IMG/VR virus record: IMGVR_UViG_3300009285_000602
Span: 1-29,864 of that record
Direction: 5' to 3' (one strand)
DNA from: a virus
Length of the DNA stretch: 29,864 nt
This document shows positions 13,950 to 19,310 of this stretch, piece after piece. Positions within the stretch are counted from its first letter, which is position 1, and every line of letters starts with the position of its first letter. Made by a program: the position numbers and the translations under genes. Under the pieces are notes generated by a model, which had not been told where the DNA came from, made no database searches, and saw only the letters and a list, made by a program, of their open reading frames with translations.

Positions 13950-14284
13950 GCGCTTTCATTTTCGCCCTTACTAGCCGTGAGACAGGAATAATCTATCAGC
14001 GCATGGATAATCTCATGCCACAGCGTTTCCGTTTTGACCTGCGGATCAAGCCGAGTGCAGATAGAAATCTGTGCTGTATCATAATCAATACGCCCGTCCA
14101 CCGGCCTAGCATCGCCATACGCGCCTGGCGATAACACAATGTCCTTTTCGAGAATACGGAAATCGTGCGGGCTAATGTGCACGCGCGGCTGGCAGGCGTA
14201 CCCCTCTGCAATCCACGGATTGTCCCGCAACACGCCCAACACGCCCCGCGCCAGCACGTCAACAATCTTTTCTTCGTGCGTCAT
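13946..14284 (-). CDS. Small HExxH zinc-metallopeptidase-like protein
   Basis: A 112-residue protein with TLWHEIIHALIDYS near the C-terminus (about residues 87-100), a zinc-binding HExxH helix. Upstream is the pattern of a family common in phages: a first helix, a strand with a Pro/His-containing turn (HISPHDFRILEKDIVL) and an acidic loop before a strand (GRIDYDTAQISICTRL). It overlaps the MuF-type gene by 4 nt (ATGA). Its place in the head cluster could suggest a maturation role, but proteins of this family also occur elsewhere in phages and a third zinc ligand is not obvious. Function unproven. Confidence 0.65.
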   Translation of the reverse strand: MTHEEKIVDVLARGVLGVLRDNPWIAEGYACQPRVHISPHDFRILEKDIVLSPGAYGDARPVDGRIDYDTAQISICTRLDPQVKTETLWHEIIHALIDYSCLTASKGENESA

Positions 14285-16068
14285 TCACTCGCTCCCGCTG
14301 CCGCCGCTTCTGCCAATTGCTGTGCGTCCCATTCCTCTTTTCGCTGTTCCGCATACTCGTCCATATCATCCCGAATATCCTCGAACTTAGTGTACGACAC
14401 GCTGCACCGGCAATTGCTTGATACGCATCCGTTGACAATGTATAATGAGCTATCAGATTGGAGGTCATAGACATGCCCACAAAAGTGTCGCAGACGTGTG
14501 AACAGGATACGTGTCGTCGTTATCAAGCCGGAGAACGATTGCAGGATATCGCGGATGTGCTCGGAATTTCCAAACCCTGTATTGAAAATATTCTCCGGCG
14601 CAACAACATCCCCCGAAACAGGTGGCACCAACTCATGCCTATCGAGGATGTTGTCCGCAGATACTCTGCGGGTGAATCCGAATTGTCCCTCAGCAAAACT
14701 CTTGACGTATCCAGGTCTGTGATCCGCAGGATATTGCTGCAAACTCGCATCCCCATTCGCAGCGGTTCGGATGCTAACCGGTTGCGCTTCGCGCGCATGA
14801 CGCCGCAGGAACGCCACGCCCTCGCGGCGAATGCCCACTCCGCCGTCCGTGGCTCCACGCAAAGCGAAGAGCATCGAATGAAGATCGCTAAAACGCGAGA
14901 AATGGAAACCATCGGAAGTGTCCCAATTGAAGATTATCTTGCTGAATGTTTGCGCGGTAACGGGATTGGCGTCATTCAACAAAAAGCCGTTGGGCGCTAC
15001 AATATTGACATTGCCATTACAGAAAGCCGCATCGCCGTGGAGATATTCGGGGGAGGCTGGCACAACAGCGGAAGACATTTGCGGCGATATAGAAAGCGCT
15101 GTGATTACCTGCTCAATAGTGGGTGGCTGCCAGTTATTATCTGGATTGATGCTCGAAGATTCCCCTTGGGTGATGGGGCAATTCAATATCTCATCGGCCT
15201 CGATGAGGCTCTTCGCCGCGGCGAATCCATCAGGCGTCAAGAACATGTGATTCGGGGTAACGGAGATAACGCGCCCATCAAATAGGCCGATATCAACGAT
15301 GTCGCCCTCATAGAATGCCTGCACGCCACATAATATGCCAGGAGCGATAACGCGCGTATCGCCCAAGACGCAGCTCGGATGTGCTGGCGACTGACTGTCC
15401 CCAGACGCGAACGCTTCGTCCACGTCTATCGCCCCTTGTTCCTCATTTCCCCGGCAAATGTCGCATACCCGTTCGTCATCGGTAGCGCGCCACGCCTTCC
15501 ACTTGTCCTCCCGCGCGTGCGCCTCGACGCTGCGCGCTTCGCTCTGCGCGGTTGCCGTCTCGGTAACGGCAATGGTCTCCCGCCGGTCTTTCAGGAGCGA
15601 CCGGTAGAACGTTTCAGCCATGGACTGGACTTCGGCATCGGTCCTGCTTGACCGTTCTAACTCCGCGACATATTTCAGATACTGAGCCTGCCGGTTAGAG
15701 TCCAAGCCCACGACCTGTTCGAGTTGGCGTGCAATAGCATACGGATGTTTACCGTCCGCCATGCCCTGGGCAATGGTCGCGGCCACGCTTTTGAGTTCCG
15801 TTTGGACCAGCCCGCGAATCAGCGTATCGGCTTGGATTCGCGCCGCGTCCGTAGCCATTTGCTGGGCTTTTCGCAGCGCTACAGGACTCGCGTCACCCGT
15901 GATCGCCGCACGATACTGGTCATACAGCGCCGCCTCAATATCCGCCCCGATGCCCTGCGTTGACGCCACAAGCGCGTCAATCCATTCGCTCATCTCGGCA
16001 ACCTGCGCGCGGGCAAATTCAGCCGACAGCAGTTCTGCGGCCAACCCGCGAATCTCGTTGTCCGTCAT
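14281..16068 (-). CDS. MuF-type minor head protein precursor interrupted by an intein
   Basis: A 595-residue ORF downstream of the portal gene. The host protein is residues 1-232 plus 553-595 (275 residues after splicing): an Ala/Glu/Arg helical N-terminus, then the MuF C-terminal signature KWKAWRATDDERVCDICRGNEEQG and, after joining, HPSCRCSVSY. The Cys pairs and His are the conserved zinc-like cluster of SPP1 gp7/Mu gpF proteins, which bind the portal and enter the head. The insertion lies exactly between HPS and CRC. Without splicing the conserved motif would be broken, so splicing is probably needed for function. The frame is intact throughout. Confidence 0.9.
   Translation of the reverse strand: MTDNEIRGLAAELLSAEFARAQVAEMSEWIDALVASTQGIGADIEAALYDQYRAAITGDASPVALRKAQQMATDAARIQADTLIRGLVQTELKSVAATIAQGMADGKHPYAIARQLEQVVGLDSNRQAQYLKYVAELERSSRTDAEVQSMAETFYRSLLKDRRETIAVTETATAQSEARSVEAHAREDKWKAWRATDDERVCDICRGNEEQGAIDVDEAFASGDSQSPAHPSCVLGDTRVIAPGILCGVQAFYEGDIVDIGLFDGRVISVTPNHMFLTPDGFAAAKSLIEADEILNCPITQGESSSINPDNNWQPPTIEQVITALSISPQMSSAVVPASPEYLHGDAAFCNGNVNIVAPNGFLLNDANPVTAQTFSKIIFNWDTSDGFHFSRFSDLHSMLFALRGATDGGVGIRREGVAFLRRHAREAQPVSIRTAANGDASLQQYPADHRPGYVKSFAEGQFGFTRRVSADNILDRHELVPPVSGDVVAPENIFNTGFGNSEHIRDILQSFSGLITTTRILFTRLRHFCGHVYDLQSDSSLYIVNGCVSSNCRCSVSYTKFEDIRDDMDEYAEQRKEEWDAQQLAEAAAAGASE
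14418..14446 (+). promoter_or_regulatory. Promoter for the antisense homing endonuclease
   Basis: TTGATA (14418-14423), a 17-nt spacer and a perfect TATAAT (14441-14446) on the plus strand. Transcription would start near 14453, followed by GGAGG at 14460-14464 and ATG at 14473. The promoter lies within the codons for the intein's blocks F and G, read on the other strand. Confidence 0.75.
14473..15285 (+). CDS. Vsr/EDxHD-type homing endonuclease encoded antisense within the intein
   Basis: A 270-residue protein and the only convincing plus-strand gene. ATG at 14473 has GGAGG 8 nt upstream and a promoter before that. Residues ~5-50 and ~55-95 are two helix-turn-helix units (RLQDIADVLGISKPCIENIL, SELSLSKTLDVSRSVIRRIL). 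A basic linker follows. The C-terminal nuclease core has an early Glu (IEDYLAE, ~153), YNIDIAI (Asp179), IAVEIFGGGWH (Glu190, His197) and RCDYL (Asp211), as in Vsr-like PD-(D/E)XK homing endonucleases such as the I-Bth0305I group. It lies entirely inside the intein coding region. It probably cuts intein-free alleles to spread the intein. Confidence 0.85.
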   Translation: MPTKVSQTCEQDTCRRYQAGERLQDIADVLGISKPCIENILRRNNIPRNRWHQLMPIEDVVRRYSAGESELSLSKTLDVSRSVIRRILLQTRIPIRSGSDANRLRFARMTPQERHALAANAHSAVRGSTQSEEHRMKIAKTREMETIGSVPIEDYLAECLRGNGIGVIQQKAVGRYNIDIAITESRIAVEIFGGGWHNSGRHLRRYRKRCDYLLNSGWLPVIIWIDARRFPLGDGAIQYLIGLDEALRRGESIRRQEHVIRGNGDNAPIK

Positions 16069-17587: not shown

Positions 17588-18913
17588 TCAAAATCCTAAC
17601 GCCGCGCGGTCCATACCCGCGAGATTCGGCTTGTTTCGCAGCAAGTCCGTCATTCCAATCACATACGAGTCTAACCGGTTTGGACTGGCCTCGTTAACCG
17701 CGCCCGTATAACTACACAGTTCCTCTTCGAGTTGCGCGAACGTTCCGATATGATGAATCCGGCGATGCTGGGCTTGGGCCGCGACGTATTCCGCCCTCAC
17801 CATTTTCCCTTTGACGGATGGAATGCCACGGAGCGGAATCGAGTACCGCCCTCGCCCCATCTCCCGAAACGTTGACACGATAGTGTGTTCCACCATCTCG
17901 CCGCCCTGGTTCGTCTCGTAGAGGATTTCTGAGGCGTGCCACTGGTCGAATAGCAAGACGGCTATCCGGGCCCATTCACCGGGCGAACCGTGCAAACTGC
18001 CGTCTGCCAACAGATACCCGTGACCGTCAACACCGAGGCCCGTAACCGTGATGCCCGCCTCGTCTCCCGCCTTCGAGCACGTCGGGTCTACCGTGACAAC
18101 CACCCTCCGCATTTCCGGCGCAGTCAACACACGGGCGGCGTCGATCTCCGCGCGTTTCCACAACGCGCCCGGAATGTCTTCGTCATCCTGCGCCAGTATC
18201 TCATGGCCGTGCGCTTCCGTAGTCATCTCAGCCGCGATATCCGCCAGCGCTTGTTCGCTGATGTACGGGTTCTCGTGGCTCGTGAAGTGGAACGCGGCCC
18301 ACCGGCCCGATGTGTCAGCTGCGGCCCGCTTGTACATCTTGGCGGCGTACCGCGGGTCTGTCGCGCGAGACAGCGCGCGCGACTTCCGGCTCGGCGGCGT
18401 GTAGATGAACACAGCGTCGCCGTCGTTGTCCAGAAGCATTGGCGCGCCAACGTCTTCCCACGCCGTCTCAGACATCAGCTGCAACTCGTCGAGGATCAAC
18501 ACGTCCGCGTAGTCTCCCCGGAGCGTGTCCGCGTTGAACGCGGTTTTTGCGCGAATGCGTTGGCGCGTACCAGGCCGGGTTATCGTGTGCATCCCTTCGT
18601 TTTTGATATACAGTTCCGCTTCGATAGGTTCATGCAACGCGCGTTTCACTTCAAACCAGAACGCATCGACCTGTTCCTGGGTCGGCACCGCGTACAGAAC
18701 GCGGTGGCCGTCCAGAAATGCTTTCACGGCGAGCACCGCGACCCCAACCGTTTTTCCTCCCCGTCGGCCTGCACGTACCACTTTCCGCTTGGCGGGCGAG
18801 TCGATAAATTCCGCCTGCTTCGGATGCGGCTGACGAAGCCGGACCGTGTACACGCGCTCGCCTGCCGGCGGCCGCGTCTCAAGCGCCGCTGACATGTCCG
18901 TCCCCAGTCTCAT
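17588..18913 (-). CDS. terL: Terminase large subunit
   Basis: A 441-residue packaging motor. The ATPase domain has Walker A (RAGRRGGKTVG, about residues 47-57) and Walker B (DVLILDELQLM). The nuclease domain has the first acidic strand (VVVTVDPTCS), a middle motif (EILYETNQGGE) and the C-terminal Asp (SPNRLDSYVIGMTDLL). Together these are the standard TerL order. It overlaps the small subunit gene by 35 nt. A second ATG at 18895 (MSAALETRPP), preceded by GGGGAC, may be the true start. It cuts and threads phage DNA into the prohead at the portal. Confidence 0.95.
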   Translation of the reverse strand: MRLGTDMSAALETRPPAGERVYTVRLRQPHPKQAEFIDSPAKRKVVRAGRRGGKTVGVAVLAVKAFLDGHRVLYAVPTQEQVDAFWFEVKRALHEPIEAELYIKNEGMHTITRPGTRQRIRAKTAFNADTLRGDYADVLILDELQLMSETAWEDVGAPMLLDNDGDAVFIYTPPSRKSRALSRATDPRYAAKMYKRAAADTSGRWAAFHFTSHENPYISEQALADIAAEMTTEAHGHEILAQDDEDIPGALWKRAEIDAARVLTAPEMRRVVVTVDPTCSKAGDEAGITVTGLGVDGHGYLLADGSLHGSPGEWARIAVLLFDQWHASEILYETNQGGEMVEHTIVSTFREMGRGRYSIPLRGIPSVKGKMVRAEYVAAQAQHRRIHHIGTFAQLEEELCSYTGAVNEASPNRLDSYVIGMTDLLRNKPNLAGMDRAALGF

Positions 18914-19310
18914 AGACTACCCGTATGACCGCCTCCGCACCGTCTATACCAGTGACCTCATTCCGCATCGTGTCCCGCTGTCCCAGCGTCTGTTTGCCAA
19001 GCCAAATCAACATCGTTTTATCGCCTTGCATGGCAAGCGCAAACTGTTTGCGGCGCAAAGACATACGACCTTCCCCTTTGCCTTTTTCAATAAGTGCGGA
19101 AATTTCTGGCTGCCCATTTTTCAACTCGCCAAAATGAGCCGGCGTCATATTCAGCGCCCACGCGATTTCCTCTTGGGTACACTGAATCATGGCGAGTTTT
19201 TGGACTAGTTCTAAATCAATCGGCTTAGACGGACGGCCTCGCCCGCGCTGCGTAGCAGATACGCCAACGGGCGTATCCGCCGTGACAGGTTTTCGTTTCA
19301 CGTGGGCCAT
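18879..19310 (-). CDS. terS: Terminase small subunit
   Basis: A 143-residue protein directly upstream of terL. A basic N-terminus leads to a helix-turn-helix (LVQKLAMIQCTQEEIAWALN then TPAHFGELKNG, about residues 35-68). A central helix follows, KGKGEGRMSLRRKQFALAMQ, then KTMLIWLGKQTLGQRD. This matches the common small-terminase pattern of a DNA-binding domain plus oligomerisation region. It recognises the packaging site and activates TerL. A strong promoter ends only 6 nt before the ATG, so the mRNA may be nearly leaderless. Confidence 0.85.
   Translation of the reverse strand: MAHVKRKPVTADTPVGVSATQRGRGRPSKPIDLELVQKLAMIQCTQEEIAWALNMTPAHFGELKNGQPEISALIEKGKGEGRMSLRRKQFALAMQGDKTMLIWLGKQTLGQRDTMRNEVTGIDGAEAVIRVVYETGDGHVSGA

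Follow-up and report, generated by a model that had tools for sequence, protein, structure and literature searches.

An antisense endonuclease gene in a phage MuF intein, with its predicted promoter and start signals in the codons of the splicing blocks

Results and discussion

The MuF gene and its intein

The DNA analysed here, called the window throughout, is the 29,864-nucleotide stretch formed by positions 1 to 29,864 of IMG/VR virus record IMGVR_UViG_3300009285_000602. Its minus strand carries an intein-interrupted gene (14281-16068, 595-aa precursor) that is assigned to MuF-type head morphogenesis by matches to Pfam Phage_Mu_F (E 1.4e-6, slightly below the gathering score) and to the head protein phrog_15127 (E 6e-30), and by its context: terminase, portal, scaffold-like and capsid genes are on the same strand, with the MuF gene lying between the portal, scaffold-like and capsid genes. 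Directly upstream of ORF 18879-19310, the minus strand has at 19345-19317 a candidate promoter for the head cluster (TTGACA-N17-TAATAT, 10/12).

The intein itself has 320 residues and occupies 14413-15372 on the minus strand, as PAHPS/CVLGDT...TPNHMFLT...GHVYDLQSDSSLYIVNGCVSSN/CRC (slashes mark its two ends). It has the residues by which inteins are recognised, namely Cys or Ser at position 1, TxxH in block B, and a C-terminal Asn followed by Cys, Ser or Thr. C1, T39, H42 and N320 are invariant across 24 aligned inteins, and the +1 residue in the window is Cys. NCBIfam intein_Cterm matches under its cut-off (E 0.018), while a profile of the intein alignment (A4) matches solved inteins, best 2jmz (E 7.8e-12) and also 2imz (E 3.5e-9); the hhalign match of A4 with the N-part alignment (A2) is self-evident, because the two alignments overlap. 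Foldseek with the structure model places the intein 1dq3 first (E 3.2e-4). The model is confident mainly in its two predicted HINT halves, and nearly all of residues 129-269, which lie opposite the nuclease described below, have a pLDDT below 50. By its motifs, its HINT fold and homology, and its precise insertion site, the element is an intein, and is predicted to splice.

The endonuclease gene on the opposite strand

Antisense to the intein, codon on codon, the plus strand encodes an endonuclease of 270 residues (14473-15285), identified from its sequence, domains and predicted fold. Two helix-turn-helix units (approximately residues 7-43 and 57-90, 14491-14742) probably bind the target DNA; the Pfam HTH_23 match passes its cut-off, and the structure model shows helices there. 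They are followed by a predicted nuclease domain resembling Vsr and I-Bth0305I (approximately residues 150-250, 14920-15222), for which Pfam MTES_1575 gives a match under its cut-off (E 2.4e-7). The AlphaFold2 model, based on 26 aligned sequences, has a mean pLDDT of 91.3, and VIA-align superimposes the nuclease domain on Vsr (1cw0) with Z 10.8 and on I-Bth0305I (3r3p) with Z 9.8. Foldseek found no match to the nuclease at E 0.001 or better, the first match being I-Bth0305I (3r3p) at E 1.6e-3, and PADLOC gave no more than a weak match (E 0.0078). Among the 26 aligned relatives (A3), Y176, N177, D179, E190 and H197 are invariant. We predict a nuclease of the EDxHD/Vsr-like type, assigned by fold rather than by a residue-by-residue match to 3r3p.

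The gene spans block B to block F of the intein, so each of its ends is bound to a splicing motif. Block B (15238-15258) faces approximately residues 256-262 of the nuclease, and TPNHPILT of block B is encoded antisense to the conserved nuclease tail, which in relatives reads YRVIRGxG. Between the two ends, the nuclease motif PVAVEIFGGGWH has as its antisense counterpart the conserved intein stretch VPTxxEDFHGDG.

Relatives of the element

Relatives were collected through their nuclease or intein sequence, and the promoter was never a criterion. The set of 217 loci is made up of 48 first nuclease relatives on viral contigs, further loci from scans, phage records and bacterial contigs, and the window; some of the loci overlap on one contig. 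A scan of viral contigs with the nuclease alignment confirmed 504 of 538 candidates, of which the best 80 were kept (10 of these were already in the set), and a scan with the intein N-part (A2) gave 297 matches, again with the best 80 kept. Nuclease relatives occur in 125 of 50,697 phage records; 15 phage-record loci entered the set by nuclease match and one by MuF match. The scan of bacterial contigs yielded only 2 relatives.

All 48 first relatives are antisense to one covering open frame, and wherever the contig is complete enough this frame is a MuF gene with an intein. The nuclease is present in all 217 loci, and in 216 of them the in-register frame on the antisense strand stays open across the whole nuclease match, the exception being Acinetobacter phage IME285. 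Since one open frame runs unbroken across the nuclease, in the window as in 216/217 loci, a split intein or fractured gene is ruled out. No MuF intein without the nuclease was found in the best 80 of the 297 intein N-part matches, where the query motif overlaps the 3' end of the nuclease gene, so that absence is not implied. In the phage records examined the nuclease is mostly unannotated, Salmonella and E. coli phages included. The record of Salmonella phage vB_StyS-sam (L065:2521-3098) has, where the intein lies, small hypothetical CDSs on both strands that overlap the match to the nuclease, and some other records name the head gene NAD+--asparagine ADP-ribosyltransferase.

For the comparison of codons, 153 distinct C-terminal intein segments remained from the 217 loci after removal of 42 duplicates, of 21 segments with an unreadable block F (at contig edges, or with the variants VHN, VHT, VFT or VYT) and of one without block G. 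They were classified by the ending of block G as SSN (37, including the window), KN (that is VKN, 18), HN (79) and other (19). Gordonia and Idiomarinaceae phages (L050, L053 and L064) have the same layout, with block G ending in ARN/CRC; the penultimate residue is here Arg, again not His. In two loci with the same intein N-part, the frame is lost after block F in one (L045, VYDLRQPPH...) and continues in the other (L046, VYDLSTLST...SSNCRC); the loss may be either decay or a sequencing error.

Two proteins from the same bases

The overlap and its codon register can be read directly from the DNA. In the nuclease frame, the codons TTA, CTA and TCA correspond to stops in the intein frame. They are found in 0 of 38,511 nuclease codons against about 772 expected, compared with 12 of 298 codons in the free-standing relative of IME285, where the antisense frame is closed. 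This difference rules out a chance overlap of open frames. Between six close pairs, substitutions at nuclease codon positions 1, 2 and 3 number 67, 40 and 111, and the 168 changed codons give 81 amino-acid changes in the nuclease and 134 in the antisense intein linker, which makes the nuclease frame the better conserved of the two.

Alleles with and without the intein

In relatives of the window's element an exact empty site was found: PPAHPN/CRSTT is uninterrupted in L218 and flanks a 272-aa intein in L057, the flanks being 77-93% identical in this one comparison. Intein-bearing and intein-free alleles thus coexist in Jerseyvirus. A search with the Jerseyvirus MuF protein matched 446 phage records, 58 of them with at least 80% of the query covered; among the 60 matches listed, many others are in two pieces that cover about half of it. 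In Escherichia phage fEg-Eco06 (L220), an intein with an antisense nuclease sits at another cysteine of MuF (TSTT/C...VKN/CRARD), with TTGACT-N16-TATAAT followed by an ATG opposite block F. The annotation calls this protein 'minor head protein with inserted intein' and leaves the nuclease unannotated.

The nuclease relative of Acinetobacter phage IME285 (L060:455-1348) is free-standing and adjoins, in antisense orientation, a MuF gene. That gene is intact and intein-free, and its interpretation as a fractured gene was accordingly rejected; the free-standing nuclease is possibly an ancestor or a homing collaborator. It also provides an argument for regarding the nuclease in general as a decayed or free-standing gene within the intein that plays no part in spreading it. 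We consider this very unlikely, given that the five residues listed above are invariant in the 26 aligned relatives, that the gene lies opposite the MuF-intein frame in 216/217 loci, and that Jerseyvirus has both kinds of allele.

Promoter, Shine-Dalgarno sequence and start codon in the window

Upstream of the endonuclease, the preliminary description had reported TTGATA-N17-TATAAT on the plus strand, followed by GGAGG 8 nt before ATG, with the -10 box complementary to Ser-Leu-Tyr codons. All of these positions were confirmed. The -35 box TTGATA (14418-14423) is the complement of the block G codons GTA TCA AGC (Val-Ser-Ser), the -10 box TATAAT (14441-14446) of TCA TTA TAC (Ser-Leu-Tyr), and the Shine-Dalgarno sequence GGAGG (14460-14464) of GAC CTC CAA (Asp-Leu-Gln), while the start codon ATG (14473-14475) is the complement of the block F His codon CAT, in GHVYDL. 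The location of the -35 box in block G, and the fact that the start codon also complements a block F codon, are additions to that description. Since the last residue of the intein is the Asn at 14413-14415, the -35 box, the -10 box, the Shine-Dalgarno sequence and the start codon are all within the mobile intein.

Measured against the sigma70 consensus (TTGACA, 16-18 nt, TATAAT or an extended -10), the site has 11/12 matches and a 17-nt spacer. It is the only sigma70-like site with at least 11/12 matches on either strand of the 29,864 bases, compared with a mean of 0.04 such sites in 50 mononucleotide shuffles. Of the 8 promoter-like sites within 10-20 kb, where a total of 5.4 +- 2.5 is expected, it ranks first. 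With the intein protein fixed and codons redrawn from phage usage, a score of 11 has p = 0.005 (1000 draws, null mean 7.66). By sequence match, 14418-14446 is therefore a predicted sigma70-type promoter, from which the nuclease gene would be transcribed. The preliminary description suggested that the nuclease may be made mainly early, since antisense transcription would run against that of the late head genes; a host-type promoter of this kind facing the head-gene cluster fits that idea.

Synonymous sites across the relatives

The preliminary description proposed that the same bases serve the splicing blocks and the antisense signals, and it named free drift at synonymous positions as evidence to the contrary. 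The comparison was therefore run on the 153 segments, against a null in which the protein is fixed and each codon is drawn independently of the others, with the codon usage of the MuF extein and of adjacent frames. A strong promoter was defined as 10/12 matches, or 7/8 for an extended -10. The best match averages 11.32/12 in the SSN class against a null of 7.52 (19 perfect), 11.11/12 against 8.64 in the KN class (8 perfect), and 8.16 against 7.38 for the other endings. For the HN class the 12-match score is barely above its null (7.15 against 6.81, a small -35 excess) and a reading with a -35 box was set aside in favour of an extended -10, which scores 5.99/8 against 4.40 (18 perfect). Strong promoters are found in 90 of the 153 segments, where 10.2 are expected from the protein alone, in related sequences that stand for far fewer than 153 independent events: a FastTree of 148 nucleases (5 more were dropped), with few well-supported branches, requires 10 changes among the SSN, KN and HN classes. 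By class the strong promoters number 36/37 for SSN (1.5 expected), 18/18 for KN (3.3), 31/79 for HN (3.6) and 5/19 for the others (1.9). The 63 segments without one at this threshold are 48 of the 79 HN, 14 of the 19 others and the remaining SSN segment. Two controls, these segments read on the MuF strand and segments of the N-extein, gave 12-match z values of -2.6 to 4.5 compared with 25.7 for SSN.

The individual codons tell the same story. Under the -10 box, Leu is TTA in 27/31 SSN segments (2.8 expected) and 12/16 KN segments (1.6), and in SSN the codon preceding this Leu ends in A in 37/37 (5.8 expected); under the -35 box, Ser is TCA in 35/37 SSN segments (5.6). HN inteins use Ile ATA in 36/46 (5.9), Thr ACA in 27/40 (5.1) and Ala GCA in 7/8 (1.4). 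The third codon positions within the SSN boxes have uniformities of 0.95, 0.76, 0.81 and 1.00, above most of those outside. Some positions elsewhere in the segment are also off usage (Asn AAC at NG in 23/72 against 43.3, and TTA before Tyr in 3/6 HN), so the codon background cannot be called fully neutral. The two classes that have TTGACA build it from different residues and with an offset of one base, SSN from TCA AGC and KN from GTC AAG, which looks like convergence at the level of the DNA. The clear conclusion is that synonymous sites in the 153 inteins are biased towards promoter and Shine-Dalgarno bases; free drift was not seen at the promoter boxes, and the proposed double use of these bases is borne out.

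The signals for translation are favoured as well. Leu under the Shine-Dalgarno sequence is CTC in 110/136 relatives (32.1 expected), and GGAGG, GGAG, GAGG or AAGG is found in 119 of the 153 segments, the other 34 having no such match. In 118/153 a start codon (93 ATG, 22 GTG, 3 TTG) lies opposite the block F residue before VY[DN]L, which is usually His; in 18 the first start is two codons further on, in 10 it is one, three, four or five codons on, and in 7 there is none within the six codons tested. In 36/37 SSN loci the spacer is 17 nt and the distance from the end of the -10 box to the start position is 26 nt.

These observations bear on a different use of the promoter, in which it would be real and make a regulatory antisense RNA directed at the head gene, the frame downstream being incidental. 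A transcript from it would indeed oppose MuF transcription, in the window and in the relatives. Nevertheless we judge this less probable still than a nuclease without a role in spread, because the Shine-Dalgarno sequence and a single start position are favoured together with the boxes, the start is held at a fixed distance in the SSN loci, and of the two frames it is that of the nuclease which is conserved. Least probable of all is that the boxes simply follow from the intein protein and from A+T-rich codons, with no selection for a promoter: the A/T-rich residues of blocks F and G (Tyr, Asn, Ile, His) do lift the null (about 6.8-8.6/12) over the extein control (about 6.2-6.5), but the excess persists with the protein fixed and the codons randomised, the less-used TTA, ATA and TCA are strongly favoured at the places where a box calls for them, the two spellings of TTGACA come from different residues, and neither the other strand nor the extein has a comparable excess.

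A two-strand homing element

We consider it highly probable that the locus is a homing element coded on two strands, with a MuF intein on one and, on the other, an antisense homing endonuclease of the EDxHD/Vsr type whose promoter, Shine-Dalgarno sequence and start lie in the codons of blocks F and G. The sequences themselves show the overlap, its codon register, the bias at synonymous sites, the exact empty site and the predicted nuclease fold, whereas expression, splicing, cleavage, homing and timing are inferred. On this proposal, the intein would splice itself out of the MuF head protein, and the endonuclease would be expressed from the opposite strand between blocks B and F. The whole unit must move together, so the expression signals must sit inside the intein, and there the predicted signals are indeed found, carried by synonymous and partly by amino-acid choices in the two C-terminal blocks. 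Host RNA polymerase would make a short-leader endonuclease mRNA independently of head-gene transcription. The enzyme would then cleave, at ...HPN/CRC..., those MuF genes in co-infecting phages that lack the intein, and repair would copy the intein in. With spread and splicing on opposite strands, the endonuclease could be expressed without making head protein.

It is tempting to go further, and to suggest that the splicing motif itself was moulded by the requirement for a promoter on the antisense strand. The usual penultimate His would have been given up (SSN or VKN, not HN), and the block F His before VY[DN]L kept, since their codons spell the -35 box and the start. None of the 79 HN-ending segments reaches 10/12, compared with 54 of the 55 ending in SSN or KN. 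We offer this as a tentative idea, which is rather more likely to be wrong than right.

In the window, 63 bases hold at once a catalytic peptide motif, a predicted promoter, a ribosome-binding site and the start codon. The element offers a compact example of dual coding in nature that allows a clean test at synonymous sites, and is widespread in phages, including those of Salmonella and E. coli.

Comparison with known systems

Inteins are usually viewed as one-strand elements in which the endonuclease is part of the intein protein, an in-frame domain between blocks B and F. PI-PfuI (1dq3) and PI-MtuI (2imz) likewise have HINT halves flanking endonuclease sequence, at a conserved protein site. 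Here, in contrast, the opposite strand carries the endonuclease as an independent gene with its own predicted promoter, Shine-Dalgarno sequence and start, and the linker on the sense strand appears from the model to be mostly a low-confidence antisense shadow. The fractured genes of Dassa et al. 2009 reportedly combine split inteins with Vsr-like endonucleases, in a phage setting and with the endonuclease between the intein halves; in our element, the MuF-intein frame is continuous.

A MuF intein in Guernseyvirinae is already in print (PMC6776784, PMC8425127). The first of these papers describes, for E. coli phage Snoke and Salmonella phage LSPA1, an intein in a capsid morphogenesis gene. A nuclease relative is present at that gene in LSPA1, and this is the same gene as in the window and probably the same element; the words 'endonuclease', 'homing' and 'antisense' do not occur in the text of that paper. 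In searches of the open-licence PMC literature, neither an intein with an antisense endonuclease nor a promoter placed in splicing codons was found.

I-Bth0305I is a phage homing endonuclease, and its EDxHD family has been described (PMC3943268). The predicted fold of the nuclease domain is like that of I-Bth0305I and Vsr; the differences are that helix-turn-helix units precede the domain here, and that the host element is an intein, to which the gene is antisense. For nuclear group I introns of Didymium, PMC9548176 describes homing endonuclease genes antisense to the host element, for which a separate promoter was proposed. The antisense arrangement is thus shared with our element. The Didymium elements differ in that the host is an RNA intron in eukaryotic rDNA, into which the gene is inserted; there the two strands do not both encode protein, and no splicing peptide houses a promoter.
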